Shown here: piece by piece, positions 17,842-40,384 of the stretch
Layout: each line of letters begins with the position of its first letter
How positions within the stretch are numbered: the first letter of the stretch is position 1
Assembly (NCBI GenBank): GCA_012729225.1
Contig: JAAYDO010000040.1
Coordinates: 1-48,848 of the forward strand
Direction: 5' to 3'
DNA from: Bacteroidales bacterium
GTDB taxonomy: Bacteria > Bacteroidota > Bacteroidia > Bacteroidales > Bacteroidaceae
DNA: 48,848 nt
Translations under genes and position numbers: made by a program
The notes under the pieces: model-generated
Database searches by the model: none
What the model saw: only the letters and a program-made list of their open reading frames with translations
What the model was told of the DNA's origin: nothing

Positions 17842-18500
17842 GAATTGATGGATGGATTTTTGTCACGGTCTCCTTCGTGCGCTTATTTGTCCATGCTCTT
17901 TCCTTCCCATTTTCTTGAAAAATTAGCAGGGGAAACATCCGAAATTTGTGTGAGATGGAAGAATGCTGAAGCGATTCTGACAAGTCTTTTCTCCAGTCGG
18001 CTCAACCAAGAGTGATGTGATGATTCCGAAGGAATAGAAGAATGTGTATATCTTATTGTGATTGAGTGTATTATCGGTGCAATAACAGGTGTGCGCTGTT
18101 GGGACGAAAACGCACGCATGGTTCGTTGGTCATCGCAGTATGGTTCGTTGGCACTTGCAACATTATTCATTGACCATCGCAGCATTGTTCATGGCCACTT
18201 GTAGCATGGTTCATTCATCAGAAGTCCCAAATGGTCAGAAAAGCCCAGTTGCTTCCACTCTTTCCTGCATGGGTTTTACTTACCCTCTCCAATGGACTGT
18301 TCGGAGGAGAAAGAGCAGATGTTTTCATGAATGATGGTCATAAGAGGGAATCGTCCATCCAACAGAAGGACATTGCAGGCCTGGGTTCGGCGAGTCCAGA
18401 AGAGGGAAGGGCGGAGTGCCAGTGGTGTGCTTTCATTGGTATAGCCTCTGCTTGCACCTCATAGACGCAAAGCGGTTGGCGACACAGGCACATTGGTGCC
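17842..18500. other. Long intergenic region with a 22-bp-period array
   Basis: About 660 bp lie between the xylanase promoter and the HD gene end. No credible gene is seen in either strand. The middle carries the five-unit array at 18117-18216 and a tail, to about 18300, that resembles the tails of the arrays near 32385 and 40166. Confidence 0.6.
18117..18300. repeat. 22-bp-period array, locus 1 (five units)
   Basis: Cores like CATGGTTCGTTG or CATTGTTCATGG start at 18117, 18139, 18161, 18183 and 18205, exactly 22 bp apart. The 10-bp linkers alternate between a CATCGCAG type and a CACTTG type, giving a 44-bp higher-order unit. Beyond the array a tail (CCTGC, then TTTTAYTTACCC) is shared with locus 3. 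Confidence 0.9.
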
Positions 18501-19727
18501 CTATGCTTTATATAGACGTTGATAGCAGAAATAATGTTTGCGAACCTTCTTGGATGCAAGGGAGGTATTGAGCATGTCGCTTGCTTCGGTCAGTTCACGA
18601 GTGGAGCCATCGTTGAAGCGAATCTCGATGAGGTCGTCGTCGAGGGAATACATGTCTTTGCCCACCTCAATGCAGGAGATGAGAAGGCTGGCATCTTCGA
18701 TAGAGATGTGGAAATGCTCGGAGAGTTCCTGAAGTTTGGCTTGTTTGCGCTCCTCGCTGACTGGTTCGTCGCTCATCTCAACCTTGAAGATGCGACGGTT
18801 GATGAAGTCGGAACTGAGGAGCGATAGCACGGGGTCGGGATGATTGCACCATGTCTTGAGGGCAGACCAGATGTCGTTGTCGTCGAGTTGCAGATATTGT
18901 TTCAGACATTCGGGGTTGCTGAAAAAGGTCTTGCGGTCTATCTGCTGATAGAGGAAGAATCGGAGGGCGGGCGAACAGAAGAGGTCTTCCCCCTGACAAG
19001 CAAGTTGCTTGGCACGTGTGAGTGCATTGATCATGACATGTTCTGCTGCCACAGAAGTCTTGTGGAGATATACCTGCCAATACATGAGGCGGCGACACAC
19101 GAGATAGTTCTCTATGGAATAGAGCCCTTTCTTGTCCACAACCAACTGATCATCCGCCATGTCGAGCATGTCGATGATGCGTGATGAGCCGATATTGGCC
19201 TCGTTCACCCCAGTGAAGAAGGCATCGCGCTTGAGGTAGTCAAGGCGATCCATGTCGAGTTGGGAAGAGATGAGTTGATGGAGAAACCGCTTGGGGTATT
19301 CATCCTTGAATATCTTGATGGCGAGCGAGAGTTGTCCGCGCATCTCCTCATTCATCCGCTCCATCACCATCAGGGATATGTCTTCGTGGCTGACACCACT
19401 GATGAGCGTGTATTCAAGCACGTGGCTGAAAGGGCCATGCCCGATGTCGTGCAACAGGATAGCCGCCTGAACGGCTTCAGCCTCACTGTCAAAAATGAAA
19501 GCACCCTTTTCCTGCAAAGAGCGGATGGCATTGCCCATGAGGTGGAAAGCCCCAAGGGAATGCTGTAGGCGGGTGTGCTGTGCGCCTGGATAGACGATGT
19601 TGGCACCTCCCAACTGCTTGATGCGGCTGAGGCGATAGAAGGCAGGGTGTCTCACGATGTCTAAGAGCAGACCTCGTGGAACACGGATGAAGCCAAATAC
19701 CGGATCATTGATGATTTTGGATGTCAT
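18501..19727 (-). CDS. HD-domain phosphohydrolase
   Basis: The protein has about 408 residues when started at 19727 (MTSKIINDPVFGFIRVPRG), where the family normally begins. The extra 22 codons of the open frame upstream (including IHFSLKTK) are read from the MITE-like element and are rejected. HD-type metal ligands are seen in RLQHSLG (His) and in LLHDIGHGPFSH (His-Asp). Relatives are deoxynucleotide triphosphohydrolase-like proteins found beside lpxD in many Bacteroidetes; the substrate is unknown. It follows pyrF in the same direction, separated by the element at 19743-19871. Confidence 0.9.
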   Translation of the reverse strand: MTSKIINDPVFGFIRVPRGLLLDIVRHPAFYRLSRIKQLGGANIVYPGAQHTRLQHSLGAFHLMGNAIRSLQEKGAFIFDSEAEAVQAAILLHDIGHGPFSHVLEYTLISGVSHEDISLMVMERMNEEMRGQLSLAIKIFKDEYPKRFLHQLISSQLDMDRLDYLKRDAFFTGVNEANIGSSRIIDMLDMADDQLVVDKKGLYSIENYLVCRRLMYWQVYLHKTSVAAEHVMINALTRAKQLACQGEDLFCSPALRFFLYQQIDRKTFFSNPECLKQYLQLDDNDIWSALKTWCNHPDPVLSLLSSDFINRRIFKVEMSDEPVSEERKQAKLQELSEHFHISIEDASLLISCIEVGKDMYSLDDDLIEIRFNDGSTRELTEASDMLNTSLASKKVRKHYFCYQRLYKA

Positions 19728-19742
19728 GGTTAGCTTTGTTTT

Positions 19743-19871
19743 GAGTGAGAAGTGAATGGTGAACGGTGAAAAATCTATGTTTCCATTTGTCAATGAGATG
19801 AAAAGCGAATGCTTTCTGCGTTCTTATCGGCAATATGGATTTCTCACTGTTCGCCATTCGCTTTTCACTTA
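19743..19871. repeat. MITE-like intergenic element, copy B
   Basis: This is the best preserved copy. The left arm (from 19743) has heptads GTGAATG, GTGAACG and GTGAAAA. The right arm (to 19871) is its near-perfect reverse complement over about 33 bp. The right end includes the TAA stop codon of pyrF (19869-19871); the left end is 16 bp before the HD start. In gene direction it contains ATTGACAAATGGAAAC, shared in part with copies A, C and D. Confidence 0.85.
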
Positions 19872-20681
19872 TAGCAGTGTAGCCATTTGGTCGGCTACTT
19901 TCTTTGCTTCCTGACCAGCAACAGTGGCAAAGTTTTCTGTCTTGTCGGCATAGATGATGGCGCGAGAAGAATTGACAAGGAGACCGCAATCCTTGGTCAT
20001 GCCATATTTGCAGACCTCTTCAAGGCTGCCACCCTGTGCGCCAATGCCTGGCACGAGAAGGAAATGAGTGGGGGCTATCTTGCGGATGTCCTCAAACATC
20101 TTTCCCTGTGTAGCACCTACCACATACATCATGTTCTCGTCGTTGCCCCATTCTTGGCTCTTGCGGAGCACTTTCTCGAAGAGGCGTTCTCCCTCGGCAT
20201 CAGCGGTGAGTTGGAAGTCGTGGCTGCCCTTGTTGGAGGTGAGAGCCAGAAGGATGACCCACTTGCCTGGGTATTGGAGGAATGGAGTGACGCTGTCCTC
20301 ACCCATGTAGGGCGCAACTGTGAGTGCATCGAGGTTGATTTCCTCAAAGAAGGTGCGGGCATACATGGCAGATGTGTTGCCGATGTCACCACGCTTGGCG
20401 TCAGCAATGATGAAATGCTTGGGGTAGTTCTCGTTGAGGTAGGTGATGGTCTTCTCAAAGGAGATCCATCCCTTCACACCCATGCTCTCATAGAAAGCGA
20501 GGTTGGGCTTGTAGGAAACGCAGTAGGGTGCGGTAGCATCGATAATCGCCTTGTTGAAGGCAAAGATGGGGTCATCTTCCTTCAAGAGGTGTTCTGGTAT
20601 TTTCTTAATATCGGTGTCGAGGCCTACACAGAGGAAGGTCTTCTTCTCGAAAATCTGTTCGATGAGTTCTTTGCGAGTCAT
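19869..20681 (-). CDS. pyrF: Orotidine 5'-phosphate decarboxylase
   Basis: This 270-residue enzyme makes UMP from OMP, the last step of de novo pyrimidine synthesis. The catalytic Lys-Asp signature is seen in [12 protein letters not shown], and the start [18 protein letters not shown] is typical of the longer, type 2 enzymes. PGIGAQGG binds phosphate. The stop codon lies in the end of the MITE-like element. It follows the DUF4153 gene by 33 bp and belongs to the purM-prfA-pyrF group typical of Bacteroidales. Confidence 0.97.
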
Positions 20682-20714
20682 ATTGTGAAATGAAATGTTA
20701 TTGATAATTGAGTT

Positions 20715-22421
20715 CTATTTCTTTTGTAACACAAAACCGTCAATGTCGAGTTGGGTGGAGCTCATATCGAAGTAGGTGGCATAGAAAAGGTTTTTGCCAC
20801 TCTTGGAATGGAACATAATGGGGGGCATTATGGATCCATCCGCTTTGTTCCCGTAGGCTTTCAACGTGTCGGTGCTGATGAGGAAGGTGTCTGTCACCAG
20901 GTCATTCTCCGTAGGCGCAAGTTTCACCATCTTCTGATTCTTCTGGATTTCTATGCTTTGGAAAGAGCACCTGATGTATCGGTTGTAGCCTTCTGGAAAG
21001 TCGATGAAAAAGTCATTCTCAGATCGGTAGTATGTGCCAATTTCCTCTACCATTACTGTGTCTTCCTCCAACTCAAATTTGTAACTGTAGAAAGACACGT
21101 AGTTGTTTTTATCCTTCACATATTGTTTGGAGGCGTCAGACCCGAAGGCCTCCTGTAGGTAGAGCAACTGTTCATTTAGCGTGATGGCTTTCTCTTTGGG
21201 AAGAGTGTGAATCATATTTTCGTATTGCTCTATATTGAGTGGAAGTTTCTTTCCTTCCAAACGATGGGAAATACTGCTGTGCAGGTAGTTTCTTGTGATG
21301 CTGGTATAGTTGATGGGAAAGGATGATGTGAGTAGGAAGATGATGGCAAATGAGATGGTAATCCAGTTGATGCGCTTGGCTTTTGTGATGAAAAGCACGA
21401 TGCAGACAAAGTAGAACCAGATGTTGAGTGTGATGATGTAGAGTCGGTTGATGGTAATGCCATAGTCGTTGAAACGTCGTATGATGCCGATTGTCATGAG
21501 TAGCAACAGTGGCAAAATGGCAAGTGGAAGGTAGCGGGCAATGAAGTGGTCTGCGTTCTTCTTACTCAGTTTGCGGATGGGGTACAGTCCAAACTCGATG
21601 ATGATAAGCCCTATCATAGAGGTCACGACGAGCAGGGAGACTCCACCTGATGGCAGTTCCCAGCGCACGAGGATGCGGGCTGCATAGATGTAGAGCACGA
21701 TGATGTATAGCCCTACAAGCGGAAGGAACAGAAATCGGATGACTGCATTGAGGAAATTGGAATCAAGAGGTTTGCGGTCATACTTCCTTTCTCCCTCTGG
21801 AATGCGACCGATAAGCAGCCATGACGACAGCAAGAGGGTGGTCAGCACACCAAGCACTCCATACCATTTTCCGTCGAAATCTATATCGAACAGTACTTGG
21901 AGCGACACGAGCAGTATGCTTGTGCCTCCCCACATGATGAGTCCTACAACCAAGCAGATGACACCGTTTGCAATCAAGTTCATTGCAAAGTTCCATGAGG
22001 CGATATTGTCTTTCTCCTTCAGAAATGAAAGGAAGAAGATGGACAGGAGCAACGCAAATGTGGTCGCAGCATGTGCTATCAGCAACTCATAGTTGGTTTG
22101 TCTTGCGTCAAGTGCATAATGCAGGTAGATGGAGTCTGCCAGCAGGATGGCATGTGATACAATGAAGACAATGGTTGCGGTGCGCTTGCTGACACCCTCC
22201 TCAGCCCATAGCTGTATGGTGAGCGACAGCAGAAAGGCTATCGACAGGAAGTAGGAGGTGACACCAATAGCCTTGTCGCTGAGTGATTGACCCTCGTCTA
22301 TCAGACAGAAGATGAGGAATGCAGACAAGGATGTGACGAAAAGGGATGGTGCAGGAAAACGCATGGCGCACATGCGGAAAGCCTTGATGATGGCCTGCGG
22401 GGCTGACGATAGTTTCATCAT
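20715..22421 (-). CDS. DUF4153-family membrane protein
   Basis: This is a 568-residue protein with about twelve membrane segments in the first 380 residues and a soluble C-terminal part of about 190 residues. The central piece with RFLFLPLVGLYIIVLYIYA and a following RWELPSGG is typical of DUF4153 proteins. The function is unknown. It lies between prfA (41 bp upstream) and pyrF (33 bp downstream), in the same direction, so it probably shares their transcript, which is not an obvious functional link. Confidence 0.8.
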   Translation of the reverse strand: MMKLSSAPQAIIKAFRMCAMRFPAPSLFVTSLSAFLIFCLIDEGQSLSDKAIGVTSYFLSIAFLLSLTIQLWAEEGVSKRTATIVFIVSHAILLADSIYLHYALDARQTNYELLIAHAATTFALLLSIFFLSFLKEKDNIASWNFAMNLIANGVICLVVGLIMWGGTSILLVSLQVLFDIDFDGKWYGVLGVLTTLLLSSWLLIGRIPEGERKYDRKPLDSNFLNAVIRFLFLPLVGLYIIVLYIYAARILVRWELPSGGVSLLVVTSMIGLIIIEFGLYPIRKLSKKNADHFIARYLPLAILPLLLLMTIGIIRRFNDYGITINRLYIITLNIWFYFVCIVLFITKAKRINWITISFAIIFLLTSSFPINYTSITRNYLHSSISHRLEGKKLPLNIEQYENMIHTLPKEKAITLNEQLLYLQEAFGSDASKQYVKDKNNYVSFYSYKFELEEDTVMVEEIGTYYRSENDFFIDFPEGYNRYIRCSFQSIEIQKNQKMVKLAPTENDLVTDTFLISTDTLKAYGNKADGSIMPPIMFHSKSGKNLFYATYFDMSSTQLDIDGFVLQKK

Positions 22422-22462
22422 ATGATAGTGGATTAGAGTTCTGCCTCCCTATTGAAGGTGAA

Positions 22463-23563
22463 TTAGAGTTCTGCTTCTTTCAGCCTCTCAGCATTCTCAG
22501 CCACGATAAGGTGGTCGATGCAGTCCTGGATGTTGCCATCCATGAAAGCAGCGAGGTTGTAGATGGTGTAGTTGATGCGGTGGTCGGTGATGCGCCCCTG
22601 AGGATAGTTGTAGGTGCGTATCTTTGCAGATCGGTCGCCTGTGGATACAAGGGTCTTGCGTCGAGAAGCAATATCGTCGATGTACTTCTGATGCTCACGG
22701 TCGTAGATGTAGGTGCGCAGACGAGCAAGAGCACGCTCCTTGTTCTTGGGCTGGTCGCGTGTCTCTGTACATTCCACAAGAATCTCTTCTGTCTCGCCAG
22801 TGCTGGGGTTCTTCCACATGTAACGGGCACGCACGCCGGACTCAACCTTGTTTACATTCTGACCACCTGCTCCTTGACTTCGGAAGGTGTCCCATTTGAC
22901 TTCACCTTCATTGATCTGCACATCAAATGGTTCTGCCTCGGGGAGCACTGCCACTGTAGATGCAGAGGTGTGCACACGACCTTGAGTCTCCGTGACAGGA
23001 ACACGTTGCACACGGTGTACGCCTGATTCATATTTCATCGTGCCATACACGTTTTCGCCTGTGATGTTAGCCACAATTTCCTTGTAGCCACCTGCGGCAC
23101 CTTCAGAGAAGGATGATATGGTGAGATGCCAACCCTTGGTCTCGCAGTATTTACTATACATGCGGAAGAGGTCGCCAGCAAATAGAGCCGCCTCGTCTCC
23201 TCCTGTGCCACCACGAATTTCGAGGGTGACGTTCTTGCTGTCTTCTGGGTCGGCAGGGATGAGAAGAAGTTTGATTTCCTCTTCCAGAATTGGAAGACGC
23301 TTCTCGTTGGCTGCTAATTCCTCGCGTGCTATCTCCTTCATTTCAGGATCATCCTCCAAGGTGATGAGTTCCTTTGCTTCTTCAATGCCCTTGACAGTGG
23401 CAATGTATTGCTTGCGGGCATTCATGATGTCCTCAAGGTTCTTGTATTCTTTGGTCAATTGCACGTACCTCTTTTGGTCGGCAATGACATGAGGGTCGGT
23501 GATGAGTGTTGATACCTCCTCAAAGCGAGGAATCAATCCTTCCAGTTTCTCCAGTATTTCCAT
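22463..23563 (-). CDS. prfA: Peptide chain release factor 1
   Basis: This 366-residue factor reads UAA and UAG stop codons and triggers peptide release. The GGQ motif is in GAGGQNVNKVES, and the stop-codon reading motif of the PxT type is PVT in VQRVPVTETQGR, which separates it from RF2 (SPF). The length is normal and no frameshift is present. The start codon overlaps the purM stop by one base (TAATG), so translation is probably coupled. Confidence 0.97.
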   Translation of the reverse strand: MEILEKLEGLIPRFEEVSTLITDPHVIADQKRYVQLTKEYKNLEDIMNARKQYIATVKGIEEAKELITLEDDPEMKEIAREELAANEKRLPILEEEIKLLLIPADPEDSKNVTLEIRGGTGGDEAALFAGDLFRMYSKYCETKGWHLTISSFSEGAAGGYKEIVANITGENVYGTMKYESGVHRVQRVPVTETQGRVHTSASTVAVLPEAEPFDVQINEGEVKWDTFRSQGAGGQNVNKVESGVRARYMWKNPSTGETEEILVECTETRDQPKNKERALARLRTYIYDREHQKYIDDIASRRKTLVSTGDRSAKIRTYNYPQGRITDHRINYTIYNLAAFMDGNIQDCIDHLIVAENAERLKEAEL

Positions 23564-24738
23564 TAATAATTAAATGTTCCGAATTCGGATTTGATGGTGA
23601 GTGACTTCTTGCCTTCCTCTATGTGACCCACAATCTGTGCATCGATATTGAATGACTTGCTGATAGAGATGACTTTCTCTGCGTTTTCGGGAGAAAGATA
23701 CACCTCAAGGCGGTGACCCATGTTGAACACATTGTACATCTCAGCCCAGTCGGTGCCTGACTCTTGTGCTATGACTTTGAAGAGTGGAGGAACAGGGAAC
23801 ATGTTGTCTTTGATGACACGGCAGTTGTCGCCCACAAAGTGAAGAACTTTGGTCTGTGCACCACCTGTGCAGTGTACCATGCCGTGGATGTCGGCACGCA
23901 TCTCATCAAGGATCTTCTTCACGACAGGAGCGTAGGTGCGGGTAGGAGATAGCACAAGTTTGCCTGCATTGACGGGTGCGCCTTCCACTGGATCAGTAAG
24001 CTTGTATGAACCTGAATAAACGAGTTCGTCTGGCACAGCCTTGTCGAAAGACTCTGGATATTTCTCAGCAAGATATTTCGCAAAGACATCATGACGGGCG
24101 GAGGTGAGTCCATTGCTGCCCATACCGCCATTGTATTCTTTCTCATAGGTGGCTTGACCGCAAGAGGAAAGACCCACGATGACATCGCCAGGGCGGATGT
24201 TGGCATTGTCGATAACGTCACTGCGCTTCATGCGGCAGGTGACTGTGGAATCTACAATGATGGTGCGTACAAGGTCGCCCACATCAGCAGTTTCACCACC
24301 TGTAGCGTAGATGCCCACTCCCATCTTGCGCATCTCGGCAAGGAGTTCGTCTGTGCCATTGATGATGGCTGAGATGACTTCGCCAGGAATGAGGCTCTTG
24401 TTACGACCAATCGTGGATGATACGAGAATGTTGTCCACTGCGCCTACACAAAGAAGGTCGTCGGTGTTCATGATGAGTGCATCTTGTGCAATGCCTTTCC
24501 ATACAGAGATGTCGCCCGTCTCTTTCCAATACATGTAGGCAAGGCTGGACTTCGTGCCTGCTCCGTCTGCATGCATGATATTGCAATATTCGGGGTCACC
24601 ACCCAAAATGTCAGGAATGATTTTACAGAAAGCCTGTGGGAAGATACCTTTATCTATATTCTTGATAGCGTTGTGCACGTCTTCTTTGGCAGCACTGACT
24701 CCACGCATCATGTATCTCTGCTTGTTGTCGATGGTCAT
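23563..24738 (-). CDS. purM: Phosphoribosylformylglycinamidine cyclo-ligase (AIR synthetase)
   Basis: From 24738 the protein has 391 residues and starts MTIDNKQRYMMRGVSAAKED; the upstream extension is Lys/Asn-rich and rejected. It makes AIR from FGAM with ATP in purine synthesis. The family signatures HADGAGTKSSLAYMYW, MNTDDLLCVGA and TGGETADVGDLVRT are present. The form is the longer Bacteroidetes type. First gene of the leftward group purM-prfA-DUF4153-pyrF-HD. Confidence 0.95.
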   Translation of the reverse strand: MTIDNKQRYMMRGVSAAKEDVHNAIKNIDKGIFPQAFCKIIPDILGGDPEYCNIMHADGAGTKSSLAYMYWKETGDISVWKGIAQDALIMNTDDLLCVGAVDNILVSSTIGRNKSLIPGEVISAIINGTDELLAEMRKMGVGIYATGGETADVGDLVRTIIVDSTVTCRMKRSDVIDNANIRPGDVIVGLSSCGQATYEKEYNGGMGSNGLTSARHDVFAKYLAEKYPESFDKAVPDELVYSGSYKLTDPVEGAPVNAGKLVLSPTRTYAPVVKKILDEMRADIHGMVHCTGGAQTKVLHFVGDNCRVIKDNMFPVPPLFKVIAQESGTDWAEMYNVFNMGHRLEVYLSPENAEKVISISKSFNIDAQIVGHIEEGKKSLTIKSEFGTFNY

Positions 24739-24777
24739 TTTAGTATGTTTTTTATTCGATTTGTTGATTTTATGTTG

Positions 24778-24836
24778 CAAAGGTAAGGAAAAAACATGAT
24801 ATTATGACTGTATGTCGAAAATCTTTCCTAAATTTG
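24778..24836. promoter_or_regulatory. Divergent purM / lpxD promoter region
   Basis: Rightward, TAAATTTG (24829-24836) fits the -7 box and lies 30 bp before lpxD. Leftward, TACCTTTG (24785-24778) lies about 40 bp before purM. Neither has a perfect TTTG -33 box at the expected spacing, so these are moderate predictions. Confidence 0.6.
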
Positions 24837-24866
24837 CAAACATATTACGTAATTAAAACTCATTAG

Positions 24867-25910
24867 ATGGTTTTTACCGCACAACAAATAGCAGGCTTTA
24901 CTGGTGGAACCGTAGATGGTAATCCTCAAGCTGCGATTAGTACATTTGCGAAAATAGAAGAAGGCACGGAAGGTGCACTTTCTTTTTTAGCAAACCCTCA
25001 GTATGAACATTATATTTATGAGACACAATCAACTATTGTGCTCGTAAATGAAGATTTCAAACCCTCACAAGAAGTGAAGGCCACATTGGTTCGTGTGAAA
25101 AATGCATACGAGTCTGTGGCTAAACTCCTGCAGCTATATCAGAGCATGCAGCAGAAGCGTGTGGGTGTTGATTCCTTAGCATTCATTGATCCTTCTGCCA
25201 AAATAGGTAAGGATTGCTATATTGGCCCATTTGTGGCAATTGGTGAGAATGTGGAGATAGGTGATGGTGTAGTGCTTCACCCTCATGTGACCATAGGCAG
25301 AAATGCAAAGGTGGGAAAGGGCACGGAGATTTATAGCAATGCTGTGATTTATCATGACTGCATTGTGGGTAAAGAATGTATCCTGCATGCAGGATGCGTG
25401 ATTGGCTCAGATGGTTTCGGCTTTGCCCCTACAACTAATGGCTATGACAAGATTCCGCAGATTGGCATTGTGACCATTGAGGATAAGGTGGAGATTGGTG
25501 CGAACACATGTGTGGACCGCTCCACTATGGGTAGCACAATCATTCGCAAGGGTGTGAAACTTGATAACCTTGTGCAGATTGCCCACAATGTTGAAGTGGG
25601 TCAGAACACAGTGATGTCTGCTCAGGTGGGCGTGGCTGGTAGTTCCAAGGTGGGAGAGTGGTGCGTATTTGCTGGTCAGGTAGGTATAGCAGGACACCTG
25701 CAAGTGGGTGACCGCACGGTGATGGGCGCACAGGCAGGTTTGGCTGGTGGTAATTTGGCTCGTAAGGGTGGTGCCACTCTCATGGGCTATCCTGCTATTG
25801 AGCACAAGAAGTTTGCAAAGAACATGGCGGCACTCAACTCTCTTCCAGAACTATTGAAGGAGGTGGCAGCGCTGAAAAAAGAAATTGAAGAACTCAAAAA
25901 CAACAAATAA
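24867..25910 (+). CDS. lpxD: UDP-3-O-acylglucosamine N-acyltransferase
   Basis: This 347-residue enzyme adds the second, amide-linked acyl chain to UDP-3-O-acyl-glucosamine in lipid A synthesis. After an N-terminal uridine-binding domain (about 1-100) come many hexapeptide repeats of a left-handed beta-helix ([20 protein letters not shown]), the catalytic His in NLVQIAHNV, and a C-terminal helix ([18 protein letters not shown]). The last codon is followed directly by the ATG of lpxC/fabZ. It is the first gene of the envelope operon. Confidence 0.97.
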
Positions 25911-27293: not shown

Positions 27294-27305
27294 TATAATA
27301 GAAAT

Positions 27306-28079: not shown

Positions 28080-28104
28080 GAAATCTTTTAACCCCATTTG
28101 TGCT

Positions 28105-28638: not shown

Positions 28639-28669
28639 AGACTGACAATCTGGAGCGATTTCTGATAAG

Positions 28670-29596: not shown

Positions 29597-29612
29597 AATA
29601 GAACAATTGACA

Positions 29613-32054: not shown

Positions 32055-32127
32055 GGATTGGGTATGAAAATGGTTGTAGGTGGAAATCTTCCTGCTATAT
32101 CATAGGATGCCATCATGGTATATAGGA

Positions 32128-32160
32128 GAAAGGGCGAACAAACGTTCGCCCTTTCTTGTT
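32128..32160 (+). terminator. Terminator after the PBP gene
   Basis: GAAAGGGCGAAC (32128-32139) pairs perfectly with GTTCGCCCTTTC (32144-32155) around AAAC, followed by TTGTTT. Confidence 0.95.
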
Positions 32161-32609
32161 TCAGATGGTTGTCTTCTTATTTCCACCAAAATTCATCGCC
32201 TTTTCACTTGAGGTGTACAGACTGAGGAAGAAAGATGAAGTCGCTTTGGAAGGCTGTGTGGCAGGCTGACTCATCCAAGGGTGTGAATGATGTTCCCCAT
32301 GTCTTCGTAAGCCCTCATATCTTGTTTGTACACAACGATTTATGGTCGATTGTAAACTTTGTGCTTGTAGGGTCATAACGCACGCATTGTTCATGGGACA
32401 TCGCACCATTGTTCATAAGCACTTGAAGCATTATTCGTTGGCCATTGAACAATGGTTCGTTGGAGCATGAAGAATGCTTCGGTCATGCGATGTGCTAAAT
32501 GGCAGGAGCATCCCTGCTGTTTCATCCTCTCGCTCACTCATTTTCCCATACTCTCCCCAAACAAGGTGGATGGGATTAGGAGTTTGATAGAACTTGCGTT
32601 GGGTGAACA
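32161..32609. other. Intergenic region between convergent genes
   Basis: This spacer lies between the PBP gene and the end of aroE. No credible gene is seen. It holds the four-unit array at 32385-32462 and a tail to about 32580. Confidence 0.6.
32385..32580. repeat. 22-bp-period array, locus 2 (four units)
   Basis: Cores start at 32385 (CATTGTTCATGG), 32407, 32429 (CATTATTCGTTG) and 32451 (AATGGTTCGTTG), exactly 22 bp apart, with linkers alternating CATCGCAC and CACTTGAAG types. The tail (GAATGCTTCGG, then AAATGGCAGG with a pairing CCTGCTGTTT) matches locus 3 over about 80 bp, and its hairpin is kept through G-U pairs. Confidence 0.9.
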
Positions 32610-33368
32610 TTACTGAGGTTCGTCTTCGTGCCAGAAGTTCCACGAGGCAATGGCTTGGGCGATGAGCATTTCCAGTCCGTTCTTCACCACAGCCCCCTGC
32701 TCAGCACCTTTCTTCATGAAGAGTGTCTCGTTGGGATTATACACGAGGTCGTAGAGTAGATTCTTTTCGTTCATTGCCTCATAGGGCAGGGCAGGACATT
32801 CATCCACATGGGGAAACATGCCCACAGGAGAGCAGTTCACAATTACCTCATATTCTTTCAGTGTCTCGGCTGTAATCTCCTCATAGGTGATGATGCCTGG
32901 CTTAGACTTGCGACTCACAAAGAGAGTGTCCAGACCAAGTTTCTCGGTCAAGCCATAGTAGATGGCCTTTGATGCTCCACCTGTGCCGAGGATGAGTGCT
33001 TTCTTGTGGTGAGGTTTCAGGAGTGGTCTGATACTGTCCACAAAACCAATCACATCACTATTGTAGCCTTTGAGGAAAGGAGTGCCATCTGATGCTCTCA
33101 TCACCTTGACCACATTCACTGCCCCTATGGCTTTTGCCTCTGTGCTGACTTCGTTGAGATAGGTCATCACAGCCTGCTTATAAGGAATGGTGACGTTTAA
33201 TCCCTTCAGTTCGGGATTGTTGTTGATTACTTTGGCAAAGTCCTCAATAGAGGGAATCTCGAAGTTGATGTATTGTGCGTCGGTCTTATCTTGTTCAAAT
33301 TTCTCTGAAAAGAACTTTTGAGAGAAGGAATGCCCGAGAGGGAAACCGACGAGTCCGTATTTGTCCAT
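32610..33368 (-). CDS. aroE: Shikimate dehydrogenase
   Basis: This 252-residue enzyme reduces 3-dehydroshikimate with NADPH in aromatic amino-acid synthesis. The substrate-binding GFPLGHSFSQKFF and the LNVTIPYKQAVM segment with its catalytic Lys are present, and GTGGASKAIYYGL is the nucleotide-binding loop. It is slightly short but complete. It follows menG by 33 bp in a leftward group. Confidence 0.95.
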   Translation of the reverse strand: MDKYGLVGFPLGHSFSQKFFSEKFEQDKTDAQYINFEIPSIEDFAKVINNNPELKGLNVTIPYKQAVMTYLNEVSTEAKAIGAVNVVKVMRASDGTPFLKGYNSDVIGFVDSIRPLLKPHHKKALILGTGGASKAIYYGLTEKLGLDTLFVSRKSKPGIITYEEITAETLKEYEVIVNCSPVGMFPHVDECPALPYEAMNEKNLLYDLVYNPNETLFMKKGAEQGAVVKNGLEMLIAQAIASWNFWHEDEPQ

Positions 33369-33401
33369 GTGCAGATGTGTTATGTGGAGAATGACTCTTG
33401 A

Positions 33402-34142
33402 TTATTTTTCAGCCGTGTAGAGAATGCACATGCCGAAAACCAGCCGTTTGAAATTGACCTGATGAAATCCTGCCTGTTCTATGATGCTTTGCATGCGCTC
33501 AGCCTGAGGCACGGCATCCATAGTGTCGGGCAGATAGGAATAAGCCGTCTTGTCTTTGGAGAAAATCTTTCCCAATGTAGGCATCACTACCTTTTTATAG
33601 AGGAAGAAGAGTTGCTTCATGGGGAAAGAAATGGGGGTGCAGAGATCGACCACAGCCAGATGACCGTCTGTAGTCAGCACTCGGTGCATCTCTTGCAGAC
33701 ACACATCAAGGTTCTGGAAGTTGCGAAGCGCAAAGGCTGAGATGACAGCATCGAAAGAGTTGTCGGCAAATGACATATTGGAGCAGTCCTCATTTCTGAA
33801 GGTGATCTGTTCCGACAATCCTAACTTTGCCACTTTCTCTCTGCCTATGTTCATCATGCCCTCGCTGATGTCACAGCCCACAACCTGCTTGGCCTTGAGT
33901 TTGTTGAAAGCAAGGATAGCAAAGTCGCCAGTGCCTGTTGCAATGTCGAGAATGCTATCCGTGCTTGTTCTGTGTTTGAGCAAGAACTGGATGGCCTTAT
34001 TGCGCCAGATGCGGTCAATGCCGAAACTGAGAGTGTGGTTCAGAAGGTCGTAGGAGTGGGCGATGTTGTCAAACATCTGTTCCACCTGTTCTCTCTTGCT
34101 GCCTGCTTCACCGTAAGGTTTTATCTGTTCCTGTTCGTACAT
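33402..34142 (-). CDS. menG: Demethylmenaquinone methyltransferase
   Basis: This methyltransferase has 246 residues from the start at 34142 ([20 protein letters not shown]); an upstream in-frame ATG gives an unlikely 17-residue extension. It carries out the last step of menaquinone synthesis with S-adenosylmethionine. UbiE/MenG signatures are [20 protein letters not shown], the SAM-binding [12 protein letters not shown], and [12 protein letters not shown]. As these bacteria make menaquinone and not ubiquinone, menG is the better name. The spacing to purC upstream is 71 bp. Confidence 0.95.
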
Positions 34143-34213
34143 GCTATGTTTTATCTTTATGTATTGGCCATGCTCTTTTGACACATGAGTCAATGCCTGT
34201 TTGATAGAAGAAC

Positions 34214-35158
34214 TTATGCCTTGAGGTAGTTCATCACATTGCGTTCAATGCGTTTGGCAATGTCCTCGTCGGTCTCTTCCTTCACAAATTTCTCGCCAAT
34301 GATGTGTTCGTAGAGCTCAATGTAACGGTCGCTCACAGACTGCGCATACTCTTCTGTGATTTCAGGCATTACCTGGCCAGGCTGGTTCATGAAGTTGTGG
34401 TCAATCAGCCACTGGCGCACAAACTCCTTGGAGAGTTGCTTCTGTGGCTCGCCCTTTTCAAACTTCTCTTCATAGCCATCAGCATAGAAGTAACGGCTGG
34501 AGTCTGGTGTGTGAACCTCGTCAATAAGATACACCTTGCCATCACGCTTGCCAAACTCATATTTGGTGTCCACAAGGATCAGTCCCTTTTCAGCAGCAAT
34601 CTTGGTGCCCAAGTCAAAGAGAGCATAAGTGTATTTCTCCATCACCTCATAGTCTTCCTTAGACACAAGACCTTGAGCAATGATTTCCTCCTTAGAGATG
34701 TTCTCGTCGTGACCTTCGTCAGCCTTAGTGGTAGGGGTGATGATAGGAGTAGGGAACTTCTGGTTTTCCTTCATGCCCTCTGGGAGTGTGATGCCACAGA
34801 GAGTGCGGTTACCTGCTTTGTACTCGCGCCAAGCAGAACCTGTCAGGTAGCCACGGATAATCATTTCCACACGGAAGCCCTCACACTTCAAACCTACAGT
34901 CACCATAGGGTCGGGGGTAGCCAACTTCCAGTTAGGCACGATGTCGGCACTTGCATCGAGGAACTTTGCTGCAATCTGATTGAGCACCTGTCCTTTGAAT
35001 GGGATGCCCTTTGGCAACACGACGTCAAATGCAGAGATGCGGTCTGTAGCCACCATCACCATGAGGTCATCATTGATGTTATACACGTCACGAACCTTGC
35101 CGTGATACACTTCCTTCTGTCCTGGGAAGTTGAAATCCGTTCTTGTTAATGCTTTCAT
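34214..35158 (-). CDS. purC: SAICAR synthase
   Basis: From 35158 the protein has 314 residues and starts [20 protein letters not shown]; the longer frame from 35224 is read through the MITE-like element and is rejected. It joins CAIR and aspartate with ATP in purine synthesis. [23 protein letters not shown] and the [15 protein letters not shown]-type segments are family hallmarks. It is the longer Bacteroidetes/eukaryote-like form. PhoH ends 184 bp upstream. Confidence 0.95.
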
Positions 35159-35194
35159 TTTGCAAAATATTTTATTATATGAATAGTATATTTT

Positions 35195-35360
35195 AGAGTG
35201 AATGATGAATGGTGGAAAACCCAAGTTTCCTTTTGTCTGTTAAAAAGAGTGCCTTTTATACGCTTGTCGGTAAAATGGATTTTTCTTGGAGACTAAGTGG
35301 TCTTTTTGATGTTTAATCTTTACAGGAAGCCGTGGGTAACACTATTCACTCTTCACTTCA
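35195..35360. repeat. MITE-like intergenic element, copy C (diverged)
   Basis: The left arm (from 35195) has GAGTGAATGATGAATGGTGG. The right arm (ACTATTCACTCTTCACTTCA, to 35360) overlaps the end of phoH, so the last codons of phoH (VKSE and stop) are read from it. The interior keeps TTTCCTTTTGTC and a TGTCGGTAAAATGGAT stretch seen also in copy B. It fills the spacer between phoH and purC. Confidence 0.65.
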
Positions 35361-36322
35361 GCGGGGAACAGTGGGTATTTCTTCTCGCCCTCATACTTGC
35401 GGTAGGCATTCACGATGCGTGTCACCAACTTGTGGCGAACAATATCACGCTCATCCATCTCTGTCCACAAGATTCCTTTCACGTTGGCAAGCACCTCCTT
35501 AGCCTCCTTCAATCCACTCTTCACGTTGTGGGGAAGGTCTATCTGAGTCAAATCGCCTGTGATAATCATCTTAGTGTTTTGCCCCATACGAGTCAGAAAC
35601 ATCTTGATTTGTTGGGTGGTGGTGTTTTGTGCCTCATCGAGAATCACCACTGCGTCATTCAGTGTTCTTCCTCTCATGAAGGCAAGTGGTGCAATCTGAA
35701 TCACATTCTGCTCCATATATTCTGTCAGTTTCTGAGCAGGAATCATATCTTGAAGTGCATCATAGAGAGGTTGCAGGTAGGGGTCAATCTTCTCCCTCAT
35801 GTCGCCAGGCAAGAATCCGAGCTTCTCTCCTGCTTCCACCGCAGGACGACACAAGATGATCTTTCTTATTTCCTTGTTCTTCAAGGCTCTCACAGCCAGG
35901 GCTATCGAAACATAGGTCTTGCCAGAACCTGCAGGGCCAATGGCAAAAAGCATGTCGTTCTCGTAGAAGCCATCCACAAGCATCTTTTGATTGTCTGAAC
36001 GGGCAGCAATGGGTTTGCCTGTTACACTATAGCAGATTGCCATTCCGTCAGCAGCGTGGCCCGATGGGTGTTCGCCTCTCACAATTCTCAAGATGTCTTC
36101 CTCGTTCAGTGAGTTGTATTTGGCGCAGTGCTGTTGCATCTTCATGATGTTTTCCTCAAAGGCACACATTTCCTCCTCGTCGCCCATCACCTTGATGATG
36201 TTACCACGCGCCACAATGCGCAACTTGGGGTAGAGCGCCTTAATCATCTGCAGATGGACATTGTTCACACCATAGAAGGTGACTAAATCAATGTCTTCAA
36301 TAACGATATGCTTTTCAATCAT
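35342..36322 (-). CDS. phoH: PhoH-family ATPase
   Basis: This 326-residue cytoplasmic protein has the P-loop AIGPAGSGKTYVSIALA near residue 132 and a Walker B-like VILDEAQNTTTQQIK. The N-terminus (IDLVTFYGVNNVHLQ, then VARGNIIKVMG) is typical of PhoH/PhoL proteins, which are linked to RNA turnover and stress. The -7 box lies only about 5 bp before the ATG, so the message may lack a leader. The extreme C-terminus (VKSE) lies within the MITE-like element. Confidence 0.93.
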   Translation of the reverse strand: MIEKHIVIEDIDLVTFYGVNNVHLQMIKALYPKLRIVARGNIIKVMGDEEEMCAFEENIMKMQQHCAKYNSLNEEDILRIVRGEHPSGHAADGMAICYSVTGKPIAARSDNQKMLVDGFYENDMLFAIGPAGSGKTYVSIALAVRALKNKEIRKIILCRPAVEAGEKLGFLPGDMREKIDPYLQPLYDALQDMIPAQKLTEYMEQNVIQIAPLAFMRGRTLNDAVVILDEAQNTTTQQIKMFLTRMGQNTKMIITGDLTQIDLPHNVKSGLKEAKEVLANVKGILWTEMDERDIVRHKLVTRIVNAYRKYEGEKKYPLFPAEVKSE

Positions 36323-36326
36323 GCCA

Positions 36327-36334
36327 CAAAGTTA
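36327..36334 (-). promoter_or_regulatory. Possible leaderless promoter of phoH
   Basis: TAACTTTG (36334-36327 on the minus strand) fits the -7 box. Its last G is 5 bases before the phoH ATG (36322), so transcription would begin at or next to the start codon. No clear TTTG -33 box. Confidence 0.5.
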
Positions 36335-36379
36335 CGGAAAAAGTCTCGTTTATGATGTAAAAACATAGAAAATATAAAA

Positions 36380-36411
36380 AGAGGTGTGGAGAAACTATTC
36401 CTCACACCTCT
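36380..36411 (-). terminator. Terminator of the ATP-grasp-like gene
   Basis: AGAGGTGTG and CACACCTCT (36411-36403 and 36388-36380 on the minus strand) form a 9-bp stem followed by TTTTTATATTTT, starting 13 bases after the stop at 36424. Confidence 0.85.
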
Positions 36412-36423
36412 GTATTTCATTTT

Positions 36424-37353
36424 TTAGTGGTACACAATCATCAGTTTTCCCTTATCCACTTTAGCCTCAAACCCTTGTTTGCGCATGGGGGTGAGCTGTT
36501 GGGTACAGCCTGTTCCATACTTCTCATGGAGGATGAGTGCGAGGATGCCCATATTCATGCGGAGGTTGATTTCCAAGCATGGATGCACATGCCCGTCTGC
36601 TGTTTTGAGCATATCAATGCCCACAGGTCCTGTGTAGGATATCTCTGCAAGCCTTTGCTGATGAAAGGTTACCAGCCTGTCTAACAATTTCTCGTCCACA
36701 CCTATTCTGTGTTTCAGTTCCTCTTGACTCTCCACATAATTATAACCGTATGTGCCTGTTGTTTCAGCATGAAAGACTGAATAACCCAGAAACTCTACTT
36801 GATGGTCTTTGTGAATGAGAAACTCCATGGCAAAATCCACCATCTTGTCCTCATAGAAGCAATCTTCCACATAGCCCCCTTGAGAGGTGATGAATCCTCT
36901 TAGGCGTTTCTCCACATGCTCGTCATACTCTTTTGCCACAAATACACCTCTGCCTGATGATGACCAAGGCAACTTGAAGATACGTGGGGGCTTTTCTTTG
37001 AGTGTTAGTTCCTCTCTCCATAGCATCTCTTGTCCAAGCAACAGGTCATCGTCCACTTCTCTCAGCATCTCTCTAATATATTCACAGGCATATTTGCGAC
37101 TTGACAATCTTCTCACCTCCTGTATCCATTCGTCAGAAGGCAAGGAGTCCTGTGGGAAACCCATCTGTTTATAGCGTTGTTTAGTGGTCATGCTCCATCC
37201 CCAAGGACCAGCCAGTGGTGTGTTGTCCCACACTTCAGACAGTGCACAGAGGTCGCTCTCCATCTGTTGTATGCGTTTGGGTGGCACATACTGGCGCACA
37301 TCTGTTGCCAGTGCCATATCGTTAGAGCAATTAAAGATACTGGGTAGTTTCAT
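36424..37353 (-). CDS. ATP-grasp-like protein of unknown role
   Basis: This 309-residue protein has ATP-grasp features: a possible ATP-binding Lys in FKLPWSSSGRGVFV (about residues 127-140), an acidic-hydrophobic FAMEFLIHKD, and the metal-binding end CLEINLRMNMG after GPVGIDMLKTADG. ATP-grasp enzymes join a carboxylate to an amine or thiol through an acyl phosphate; the substrate here cannot be read. No signal peptide is present. It has its own -7 box and terminator and therefore seems to be transcribed alone. Confidence 0.65.
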   Translation of the reverse strand: MKLPSIFNCSNDMALATDVRQYVPPKRIQQMESDLCALSEVWDNTPLAGPWGWSMTTKQRYKQMGFPQDSLPSDEWIQEVRRLSSRKYACEYIREMLREVDDDLLLGQEMLWREELTLKEKPPRIFKLPWSSSGRGVFVAKEYDEHVEKRLRGFITSQGGYVEDCFYEDKMVDFAMEFLIHKDHQVEFLGYSVFHAETTGTYGYNYVESQEELKHRIGVDEKLLDRLVTFHQQRLAEISYTGPVGIDMLKTADGHVHPCLEINLRMNMGILALILHEKYGTGCTQQLTPMRKQGFEAKVDKGKLMIVYH

Positions 37354-37358
37354 GGAGG

Positions 37359-37366
37359 CAAAGGTA
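37359..37366 (-). promoter_or_regulatory. Possible leaderless promoter of the ATP-grasp-like gene
   Basis: TACCTTTG (37366-37359 on the minus strand) ends 6 bases before the ATG at 37353, again placing the start of transcription at the start codon. Confidence 0.5.
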
Positions 37367-37450
37367 TGAAAAAAACAGATTCATTATGTCCTCTTTTCCT
37401 TGAAAGATAGTTTTTCCATTCTTTATTTTCATATATCACTTATTTTTTAC

Positions 37451-37458
37451 TATCTTTG
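37451..37458 (+). promoter_or_regulatory. -7 element of the GH127 gene
   Basis: TATCTTTG followed by C lies 58 bp before the ATG at 37516. The -33 box is weak (T-rich, no exact TTTG). Confidence 0.65.
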
Positions 37459-37515
37459 CACTTCCTAAAACTGTAAACTTAAACTTATAACAATTCTAAC
37501 ACTCACTACATTTAG

Positions 37516-39930
37516 ATGAAAATGAAACATTTGATGGCTGCTGCCTGGGCATTCTGCTTGGCAGCATCAGTCTCAGCACAAAGTGAACTCTATCCTCAGC
37601 ATTTCAATTTGGAAGAGGTTGTACTCCTTGATGGTCCTATGAAGACCATGCTCAACACCAACAACAAGTTGCTTCTCGAATATGATGCCGACCGATTGAT
37701 GACGCCTTTTATTCGTCAGGCAGGTCTCTCTTCCGACCCTAAATCAAAGTATTTCGAGTGGGAAAAGGCTCATCCTTCTTTTGGCAATTGGGGCCAGCCC
37801 GATTGGAGTCTTGAGGGTCATGTAGGTGGTCACTATGTGTCTGCACTTGCTCTTGCCTATGCTGCAACCCATGATGCAGCCATGCAGAAACAACTGAAGG
37901 AGCGTCTTGACTACTGTCTCCGCATCATGAAGGATTGTCAGGATGCCTACAAGGCAGACAAGACAGGCATGAAGGGATTCATAGGTGGTCAGCCTATCAA
38001 CCAGATCTGGACGGGTCTCTATGCCAAGGACCTTACTGAGTTCCGCAAGTATGGCGGTTGGGTTCCTTTCTATTGTCAGCACAAGGTGCTTGCAGGTTTG
38101 CGCGATGCCTATATCTATGCAGGTAGCGGATTGGCAAAGCAGCTTTTCCGCCATTTGGCAGACTGGAGCGTAGATGTGGTCAGCAACCTTTCTGACGAGG
38201 AGATGCAACATGTGCTCGGTTGGGAACATGGTGGCATGAACGAGACGCTTGCAGATGCCTACACCATCTTCAAGGACAAGAAATACCTTGAGGGAGCAAA
38301 GAAATATAGCCATCGTCAGATGATTGACGGTATGAAGACTTTCAACCCAACCTTCCTTGATGGTAAGCATGCCAATACACAAGTGCCTAAGTACATAGGT
38401 TTTGAGCGTGCATGGCAGGAAGACAAGAGTTTGGCAGACTATCGCAATGCTGTGATTAACTTCTGGGATGATGTGGCAAACAACCGCACTGTCTGCATTG
38501 GTGGTAACTCTATCAGCGAGCATTTCCAAAACCATAACAACGGTAAGCTTTACATTAATAATATGGAAGGTCCAGAGTCCTGCAACTCCAACAACATGCT
38601 CAAACTCTCTGAGAACCTCTTTGATGACACTCACGATGCCAAGTATGCTGACTTTTACGAGGCAACCATGTGGAATCATATCATGTCCACTCAAGATCCA
38701 GAAACAGGTGGCTATGTATATTTCACTTCCCTCCGCCCTCTCTCTTACCGCATCTATTCTCAGGTGAACCAAGGCATGTGGTGCTGTGTGGGAACAGGCA
38801 TGGAGAACCACAGCAAGTATGGTCACTTCATTTATACCCATAGTGCTGATAACGACACTCTTTATGTGAACCTCTTCACAGCCAGCGAACTCAAGTCAAA
38901 GAAGTTTGGCATTCGTCAGGAGACCCGTTTCCCATACGCTCAGTCATCCAAACTCACTATCACCAAGGGTGGTAAGTTCACCCTTGCCATTCGCAAGCCA
39001 TCGTGGGCCAGTGCTGATGGTAAGGCTTCCTACACCTACGAGACCAAGCAGTGGAAGGCTGGTGATGTGGTCAATGTGGATCTCCCCATGTCATTCCGCT
39101 ACGAGGAATGTCCAGACTACAAGGATTACATAGCCTTCAAGTATGGTCCGATCCTCATGGCTGCACGCAACGAGACTGAAGCGACCCTGCCTAATGAATA
39201 TGGTGGTGAAGGGCGCATGGATCACTCTCCAGGCGCACGCTCCAGTGCTCTGCCACTCTCGTCTGCTCCATTGCTCATCGGCAATCGCTCAGAAGTGCTC
39301 AATGCTATCAATCCTGTTTTCCCAGAAAGATTGCAGTACTCTATCACTACCGACAAGGGTAAACTACCACTCGTGCCATTCTACAGCATTCAGCATTCTC
39401 GCTACTCTTGCTACTTCTTCCAAGGCACTCCAGACGATTATGCTAACTCTGACATGGGTAAACGAGATGCGGAGGAACAGGCTCTCCAAGCCCGCACCAT
39501 CGACTATGTGGCTACAGGTGAACAACAGAGCGAGGCAGGTCATCAGGCGAAGTATTCTGTAGGTTCTACAGCAGGACAGTACCGTGGAGAGACCTATCGC
39601 GATGGCAAGAATGGTGAATACATTCAGTATGTGATAGAGAATCCTCAGGAACTCACCCAAGACATCACTCTCATGGTACGCTTCATCTCTTCTGACCGTG
39701 GTCGTCGTGCTGACATCTTTATCGACGGTGAGAAAGTGGGAGACGTATCCGTTCAGGGTCGCATGCAGGGGGCTGACGAGAATGGCTTCTTCAATTTGGA
39801 GTTCCCGCTGACCGACAAGATTCTCAAGGATGCTAACGGCAATGTGAAGAAGCAACTTACCTTCAAGATTCAGGCAGATCCAGCAACAATGATTCCTGGT
39901 CTCTATTTCGTGCGCCTGCTCAAGAAATAA
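37516..39930 (+). CDS. Secreted GH127-family beta-L-arabinofuranosidase-like enzyme
   Basis: This 804-residue protein has a signal peptide (MKMKHLMAAAWAFCLAASVSA) cleaved before QSELYPQHF. The GH127 (DUF1680) domain begins with LEEVVLLDGPMKTM and spans to about residue 560; the Cys-rich MWCCVGTGMENHSKYG contains the cysteine expected to act as nucleophile. A C-terminal beta-rich domain follows (about 640-800). Such enzymes remove arabinofuranose from plant glycans or glycoproteins, and the neighbouring GH10 xylanase gives a fitting setting. It is a single gene with its own terminator and no SusC/SusD pair nearby, so it is not part of a classical polysaccharide utilisation locus. Confidence 0.9.
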   Translation: MKMKHLMAAAWAFCLAASVSAQSELYPQHFNLEEVVLLDGPMKTMLNTNNKLLLEYDADRLMTPFIRQAGLSSDPKSKYFEWEKAHPSFGNWGQPDWSLEGHVGGHYVSALALAYAATHDAAMQKQLKERLDYCLRIMKDCQDAYKADKTGMKGFIGGQPINQIWTGLYAKDLTEFRKYGGWVPFYCQHKVLAGLRDAYIYAGSGLAKQLFRHLADWSVDVVSNLSDEEMQHVLGWEHGGMNETLADAYTIFKDKKYLEGAKKYSHRQMIDGMKTFNPTFLDGKHANTQVPKYIGFERAWQEDKSLADYRNAVINFWDDVANNRTVCIGGNSISEHFQNHNNGKLYINNMEGPESCNSNNMLKLSENLFDDTHDAKYADFYEATMWNHIMSTQDPETGGYVYFTSLRPLSYRIYSQVNQGMWCCVGTGMENHSKYGHFIYTHSADNDTLYVNLFTASELKSKKFGIRQETRFPYAQSSKLTITKGGKFTLAIRKPSWASADGKASYTYETKQWKAGDVVNVDLPMSFRYEECPDYKDYIAFKYGPILMAARNETEATLPNEYGGEGRMDHSPGARSSALPLSSAPLLIGNRSEVLNAINPVFPERLQYSITTDKGKLPLVPFYSIQHSRYSCYFFQGTPDDYANSDMGKRDAEEQALQARTIDYVATGEQQSEAGHQAKYSVGSTAGQYRGETYRDGKNGEYIQYVIENPQELTQDITLMVRFISSDRGRRADIFIDGEKVGDVSVQGRMQGADENGFFNLEFPLTDKILKDANGNVKKQLTFKIQADPATMIPGLYFVRLLKK

Positions 39931-39983
39931 GAAAAATACTATAGATACAAAAGGGAGAGGTGAGCCAAAAACCTCTTCTCATC

Positions 39984-40024
39984 AAAGAGCGAGCGCTGCA
40001 AAGCACTTGCTCTTTTTATTTTAT
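39984..40024 (+). terminator. Terminator after the GH127 gene
   Basis: AAGAGCGAGCGCT pairs with AGCACTTGCTCTT (one mismatch, one G-T) around a short loop, followed by TTTATTTTATT. Confidence 0.85.
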
Positions 40025-40384
40025 TCGTGCGGTTACTCCATCTACCAAACGGAAATACAGAAACTGCAAGATGTATTACTGATTTATAAGAATAGTTATA
40101 TCTTCTTTATATACAGCTATTTATGATTGTTTGGTGATTTGATGCTTGTGAGGTCAAAAAGGCACCATTGTTCATTGACACTTACACCATTGTTCGTTGA
40201 CACTTACACCATTGTTCGTTGGTCACCTCACCATTGTTCGTTGGAACATGAGGAATGCTTCGGGAATGCAGGATGTAAAAATGGCAGGATTTCCCTGCCA
40301 TTTCATTCTCTCTCACACACCTGCTTTTATTTACCCTTCCTAATGAATGAGAAGAGGCATGATTATTCATCTTTCTCCGCATGC
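40025..40384. other. Intergenic region between convergent genes
   Basis: Spacer between GH127 and the end of the leftward lipoprotein gene. No gene is seen; it holds the array at 40166-40243 with its tail hairpin. Confidence 0.6.
40166..40355. repeat. 22-bp-period array, locus 3 (four units)
   Basis: Cores CATTGTTCATTG (40166) and three identical CATTGTTCGTTG (40188, 40210, 40232) are exactly 22 bp apart. The first two linkers are identical (ACACTTACAC). The tail contains GAATGCTTCGG, a hairpin AAATGGCAG (40278-40286) / CTGCCATTT (40295-40303), and TTTTATTTACCC, shared with loci 1 and 2. The hairpin may also end transcription. Confidence 0.93.

Follow-up and report, generated by a model that had tools for sequence, protein, structure and literature searches.

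A tandem 22-bp array forms the conserved core of a miniature element whose copies stay kilobases apart in a Bacteroidales genome

What are three arrays of one short sequence, each repeated at an exact 22-bp period, doing between the genes of a single bacterial contig? The window (the whole stretch analysed, 48,848 nucleotides) is contig C2 of a 213-contig, 2.89-Mb Bacteroidales genome estimated to be 88.8% complete. A first-pass annotation, made from the sequence alone, had described the arrays as 12-bp cores and offered a protein-binding array, a nucleoid or replication-related site, or a mobile repeat as their nature. The description was borne out by reading the letters: plus-strand cores start at 18117, 18139, 18161, 18183 and 18205 (array 1, 18117–18216), at 32385, 32407, 32429 and 32451 (array 2, 32385–32462) and at 40166, 40188, 40210 and 40232 (array 3, 40166–40243), always in 22-bp steps. 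A pattern search allowing two mismatches recovered four of five, three of four and four of four of these cores, respectively; at the same tolerance the window holds 18 core matches where 5.3 are expected, and 18 was reached by none of 100 shuffles.

Each array lies inside a longer element, here called T1, of about 500 bp, which is non-coding and MITE-like and consists of an A-rich leader ending in AAAACGCAC, a row of 22-bp units and a tail. Using nhmmer, we placed three plus-strand copies in the window: copy 1 at 17881–18298 (model positions 53–468), with a degraded leader, the five-unit array and a partial tail; copy 2 at 32112–32600 (model positions 7–502), which is nearly full length; and copy 3 at 40059–40366 (model positions 180–485), with convergent genes on either side. 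The proteins encoded next to the window arrays are a GH10 enzyme, an HD-domain protein, a PBP, an aroE-like protein, a GH127 protein and one without a Pfam match. We counted 86 T1 arrays in 1.436 Mb, about half of the genome, which extrapolates to about 173 in the whole; a two-core pattern with up to three mismatches has 203 + 191 matches genome-wide, and the reversed pattern has none.

Arrays mostly contain four or five units, with a range of two to six by the array detector. Our alignment comprises 70 rows from fetched stretches, seven of which repeat, in reverse, an array that another row already shows. Among the 45 rows with a recognisable leader and tail, the distance from leader to tail is 10 bp more than a multiple of 22 bp in 44 and is off by 1 bp in one. 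The first-pass annotation had staked its 22-bp period on finding further copies with constant spacing, and both are there in abundance. It had also read linkers of alternating type as the sign of a true 44-bp unit; this part fell, because odd and even unit numbers both occur and copies differ by single 22-bp steps, and the linker type tracks position inside the element. Its judgement that the arrays are not CRISPR-like agrees with their anatomy: CRISPR arrays are near-identical repeats with unique spacers between them, whereas T1 has 12-bp cores with recurring 10-bp linkers, and we rejected a CRISPR identity. In BLAST comparisons among copies, similarity extends between about −300 and +220, counted from the array start, with fewer copies reaching toward the ends.

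At locus 2 the element is an insertion whose site is empty in a congener (one locus, one congener). That congener, G019, has orthologues of the PBP-type gene (81%) and of aroE (75%) side by side and convergent, their stop codons 124 bp apart; in the present genome 555 bp separate the PBP-type and aroE-like stop codons, and the element fills 32112–32600.

The two ends of the T1 consensus, near AACATGAGTTCG and CGAACTCACG, form an inverted repeat, and single copies come closer to AACGTGAGTTCG than the consensus ends do. Recognisable terminal inverted repeats (TIRs) are found in a minority of copies, and in the copies listed the ends, inspected by eye for a target-site duplication, were too decayed. 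Within the genus, 31 of 45 genomes, counting the present one, have the terminal repeat at up to two mismatches, and in congeners G024 and G062 it bounds an IS982-type transposase gene; the G024 product matches DDE_Tnp_1_3 in Pfam and IS982 in NCBIfam (258 bits, cut-off 130). The present genome holds two fragments only of this transposase at E 1e-20, and intact copies may have been lost in assembly, because several of its terminal repeats lie near contig ends. No transposase carrying a T1 array was found, and the sole IS21 seen bears different repeats. This IS21 (L256, on contig C194 of the same genome, G000) encodes part of IstA together with an IstB ATPase that scores above the Pfam cut-off and, at 179.5 bits, below the NCBIfam cut-off of 200; the repeats at its right end (L256, 2468–2546) are 23 bp apart. 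Genome G018 has a different MITE of about 197 bp (L129–L132) with the same IS982-type terminal repeats, and two further loci (L209, L210) resemble its inner sequence, with a 23-bp step. A genome from another family of the order (G054, L246) carries two arrays of 23-bp period and CTCACAAGTTTGTCAGTTTTTAC type, at 8225 and 9624 and in the same orientation, which flank a single 420-aa gene that is ATPase-like by eye.

The strict two-core pattern (at most one mismatch) has 88 + 79 = 167 matches in the present genome and none in 60 relatives, 36 of which are congeners. The 504-nt consensus found short scraps only, in 5 of 44 congeners (with at most the best 14 candidates per genome scored); one (L087) is the terminal repeat and another (L089) belongs to a related kind of array that steps by 21 bp, found a few times in G064 and G019 and once, as a weak match, in G028. 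An exact scan of a genome collection, which may leave out records of the present genome, yielded 32 stretches matching the strict pattern; neither leader nor tail was seen in the 18 of these records inspected by eye, most of which are TTCATTG heptamer repeats. Such heptamers, mostly from Chloroflexi and Saprospiraceae records, match the strict pattern and, unlike T1, are mostly plain 7-bp repeats. Two of the inspected records, from unrelated bacteria (L106 and L113; Syntrophorhabdaceae and Chloroflexi records), are short 22-bp steps of CATTG-rich repeats, and 11-bp CATGAATTGAC repeats occupy a short intergenic stretch of G063 (L090). A plasmid collection searched with the locus-2 stretch gave no match, and viral contigs gave none. 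Of the natures first proposed, a mobile repeat is thus supported by the element ends, the copy number, the restriction to one genome among those searched and the empty site.

Within the element, the array is the best-conserved part, an observation that looks new. Averaged over pairs of 26 long-flanked copies, identity is 0.88 in the cores, 0.71 in the linkers and 0.45–0.57 in the leader body and tail; the cores were used to find the copies, which biases their figure, and the linkers, which lie outside the search pattern, give the safer one. When leader-only and tail-only models were run over 35 contigs, 53 of 55 leader matches and all 56 tail matches had an array no more than 400 bp away. The two stray leaders are one truncated by a contig end and one cut by an apparent other IS. 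The DNA cutting off a T1 leader on contig C46 (L160, 3–212, minus strand) contains the open start of a transposase-like gene, whose 70-residue fragment has no Pfam match. A detectable flank is absent from 14 of the 65 arrays on the first 22 contigs.

Copies of T1 also keep away from one another. On the first 22 contigs, which hold those 65 arrays, none of 43 gaps between T1 neighbours is shorter than 6 kb (smallest, 6.4 kb), against 14.4 expected from uniform placement, 13.0 from random intergenic placement and 7.1 from placement in convergent gaps only (P = 0.0005). The 6-kb limit was set after seeing these 43 gaps; with the limit fixed, 13 further contigs gave 0 of 9 gaps below it (null 4.0, P = 0.003; smallest, 6.2 kb). 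Taken together, 0 of 52 gaps compares with a mean of 18.5 under the uniform null and with 16.2 under an intergenic null weighted for the observed gene orientation, in which the lowest of 4,000 simulations was 5. The contigs were mostly chosen for holding arrays, and each null keeps the number per contig. We infer that T1 copies are too divergent from one another to break a short-read assembly.

Two other array families are present in the window. T2, unrelated to T1, has ACCATATGGT-type cores at 15264–15340 (plus strand; 22-, 23- and 22-bp steps, with a degenerate first core); its pattern has 45 + 44 matches in the genome, many of them one palindromic place read on both strands, and none in 44 congeners. 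T3 consists of CTTCGAGATGC repeats with an 11-bp step at 12952–12994 (plus strand), with a second copy at approximately 41571–41600 (minus strand); in the few T3 copies inspected the 5′ end is of the same type as in T1. T3 likewise spaces itself, with 0 of 16 gaps shorter than 6 kb (null 3.9, P = 0.008), and T2 offers 2 gaps only. Between families, T2 arrays lie within 6 kb of a T1 in 10 of 18 cases (11.2 expected) and T3 arrays in 20 of 42 (25.8 expected); this last deficit is weak (P = 0.04), and because of it exclusion across families may not be nil. Within 1 kb of a T1 we found 7 of 18 T2 arrays, where 2.05 were expected (P = 0.002; contigs C62, C136, C212 and C24), perhaps through nested insertion. 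Since many T2 and T3 arrays sit near T1, site availability fails to explain the within-family spacing. The exclusion of about 6 kb within families, with none or hardly any between them, looks new; in the literature, searched as open-licence papers, we recognised no account of the T1 element or of self-spacing MITEs.

The families also have their period in common. A blind scan of 1.114 Mb of the genome for intergenic tandem arrays with steps of 8–60 bp (self-identity of at least 70%) returned steps of 11 bp (18 arrays), 22 bp (56) and 44 bp (2) and no other. This confinement across unrelated families looks new and is suggestive; few families are involved, so it does not amount to 76 independent events. 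A fourth 22-bp unit (TTTCATCTCTGATGTTTTCATA) forms a long array at position 5403 of contig C212 and was met once in the stretches scanned. Eleven congeners, sampled over about 0.6 Mb in stretches partly chosen around known arrays, have 30 intergenic arrays, of which 15 step by 21–24 bp; for other families of the order, sampled over 0.31 Mb, the figure is 4 of 7. The remaining steps in these samples are 8–10, 12, 14, 16, 18, 29 and 42 bp. Palindromic cores, which by eye had appeared to be a general rule, failed a shuffle test of 19 typed units (Fisher chi-square 45, 38 degrees of freedom).

A repeated element, its ends, its insertion at one locus, conservation centred on the array and exclusion within families are directly supported by these results. 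Our best explanation, to which we give a probability of about one half, is a miniature transposable element, specific to the species, that has the arrays as its conserved core and in which a putative binding array keeps same-family copies out. T1, with its IS982-type TIRs, would have spread mostly into the gaps between convergent genes; its array would present binding sites in a row, at intervals of two helical turns, to a family-specific DNA-binding protein, most likely the transposase or a helper, and the bound array would bar further copies of the family from the next several kilobases, in the manner of the cis (target) immunity of Mu or Tn7. The protein-binding array of the first-pass annotation is plausible from the letters, the array being conserved and unrelated families sharing multiples of 11 bp; the constant step on which that proposal leaned is equally given by common descent. 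Target immunity acting through the array is the mechanism that we prefer: T1 and the few T3 copies inspected share a 5′ end type, and yet the two families show no strong mutual exclusion, so the interior, and hence the array rather than the TIR, would set the exclusion. We also count in favour of the explanation that the genome encodes an IS21 with an IstB ATPase and with repeats 23 bp apart at its right end. To our knowledge, no protein is known to bind the T1 array, and we know of no precedent for an IS982 element with target immunity.

The strongest competing account, which we regard as a real but lesser possibility, treats T1 as a plain MITE like BrickBuilt of Porphyromonas gingivalis, the array being a functionless inherited minisatellite and the spacing having some other cause, such as insertion history. 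Common descent would yield the constant spacing, unit number varies by whole units as in any minisatellite, and BrickBuilt itself is a precedent; this account is strained by an array conserved far above both its flanks, by the multiples of 11 bp common to unrelated families and by an exclusion that is strong, replicated and chiefly within families.

We consider it unlikely that the arrays are instead selected chromosome sites, whether supercoil-domain, nucleoid or gyrase sites at convergent gene ends, set at intervals of about 10 kb. The placement of arrays has something of this character. On the first 22 contigs, with 6 of 65 arrays at contig ends left out, 5 of the 59 placed overlap a mechanically called ORF and the other 54 lie between such ORFs. 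Convergent genes enclose 31 of these 54 and divergent genes 3; for the 276 intergenic gaps measuring 150 bp or more, the corresponding numbers are 69 and 64. The median T1 gap is 12.4 kb, and 31 of 52 gaps measure 6–14 kb. However, each family would need a private spacing role, the zone from which T1 excludes itself often holds T2 and T3, the strict pattern has no match in the 60 relatives, and array orientation bears no relation to GC skew (plus-strand arrays, 19 positive and 13 negative; minus-strand arrays, 18 positive and 15 negative). The same count leaves the replication-related site of the first-pass annotation unsupported; an impression of replication polarity, gained from a single contig, failed it.

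A structured non-coding RNA, or a terminator of repeated hairpins, is improbable. A hairpin can be drawn in the tail of copy 2 (32497–32522, plus strand; AAATGGCAGG...CCTGCTGTTT) and of copy 3 (40279–40303, plus strand; AAATGGCAGG/CCTGCCATTT, 10 of 10 pairs) and is partly decayed in other copies. Locus 2 folds well as a whole (z −3.7), the tails of loci 2 and 3 alone beat most shuffles (z −1.9 and −2.4), and some copies with little flank are quasi-palindromes that carry A- and T-tracts and lie between convergent genes. Against this, loci 1 and 3 as wholes fold no better than shuffles (z 0.5 and −0.1), a strong common fold is absent, most tails have a decayed hairpin, and the window has no Rfam match at the gathering threshold. 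The hairpin had been described as kept through G–U pairs; its folding at loci 2 and 3 stands, and its conservation across copies does not, with full pairing (9 of 9, G–U allowed) in 6 of 35 tails and a mean of 7.5 of 9 pairs, weakly above the 6.6 of shuffles. A conserved fold of the array itself, sought in 20 of 24 four-unit copies, was dropped on a very weak RNAalifold result (−1.3 kcal).

Loss of formerly close copies through mutual recombination, which would also act within families, is just as improbable: the four shortest gaps (6.2–7.8 kb) all separate direct neighbours, and inverted neighbours, whose recombination inverts and does not delete, are missing below 6 kb as completely as direct ones (0 versus 9.2 expected for each).

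If the array-based immunity that we prefer for T1 is real, the array may govern where a further copy can insert, and target immunity would extend to non-coding elements. Minisatellite-bearing MITEs are known, and the reason for which they keep their arrays is not; exclusion together with array conservation offers a testable one. A broader version, in which phased arrays give several unrelated minisatellite MITE families a family-specific target immunity of about 6 kb, decided by the array and not by the TIR, is a tentative proposal that we hold with considerable doubt. Were it true, non-coding elements would space themselves along a bacterial chromosome, and array-based immunity could be the reason that relatives, too, have arrays with a step near two helical turns, made of other sequences.

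Among known systems, T1 is a MITE of the BrickBuilt kind, a kind already described: the closest published element is BrickBuilt of P. gingivalis, a 23-nt minisatellite inside a MITE (PMC4596501). As described in the sections of that paper available to us, BrickBuilt, like T1, is intergenic, non-coding and species-restricted, is built of a leader, short tandem repeats and a tail, and has TIRs matching an IS; in both, the array survives loss of the flanks and a leader-to-tail form without repeats is absent (PMC4596501). T1 differs in its unit (22 bp versus 23 nt, compared by length and not by letters), in its TIR (ACGTGAGTTCGA type, AACGTGAGTTCGA, versus GAGACC), in its unit number (mostly 4–5 versus 1 to 22.8) and in its copies (about 173, extrapolated, versus 19); T1 shows spacing exclusion, of which those sections make no mention for BrickBuilt (PMC4596501). 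We ruled out that T1 is BrickBuilt itself on the unit (22 versus 23) and the TIR (AACGTGAGTTCGA versus GAGACC type). Other elements of P. gingivalis, MITE239, MITE700 and ISPg3, have nearly the terminal repeat of T1 (ACGTGAGTTCGA/TCGAACTCACGT type), and the two MITEs, unlike T1, are described there as having no mini- or microsatellite uptake; ISPg3 is labelled IS5 in the same source, whereas the congener transposase found here is IS982 by NCBIfam (PMC4596501).

REP/REPIN–RAYT systems resemble T1 in their many short intergenic copies, and T1 differs from them in not being single hairpins. A search for the RAYT-type Y1_Tnp transposase, which detected the family in 5 of 14 control genomes, gave no match in the present genome (88.8% complete), and we rejected a RAYT link.

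The exclusion among T1 copies resembles target immunity. In the portions of the literature drawn on here, Mu, Tn7 and Tn3 are described as showing cis immunity, in which a bound end hinders insertion nearby; Tn7 carries, in its right end, four 22-bp transposase sites that partly overlap, and IS21 ends carry repeated transposase sites (PMC11208146, PMC10122671, PMC3562280, PMC11406308). IS21, Mu and Tn7, so described, have repeats at both ends and their own transposase and helper, whereas T1 has IS982-type TIRs, no such genes and one array, internal and of a single orientation where transposon ends form an inverted pair. What T1 has in common with them is the hallmark of target immunity, that no copies of the same element lie near an existing one.
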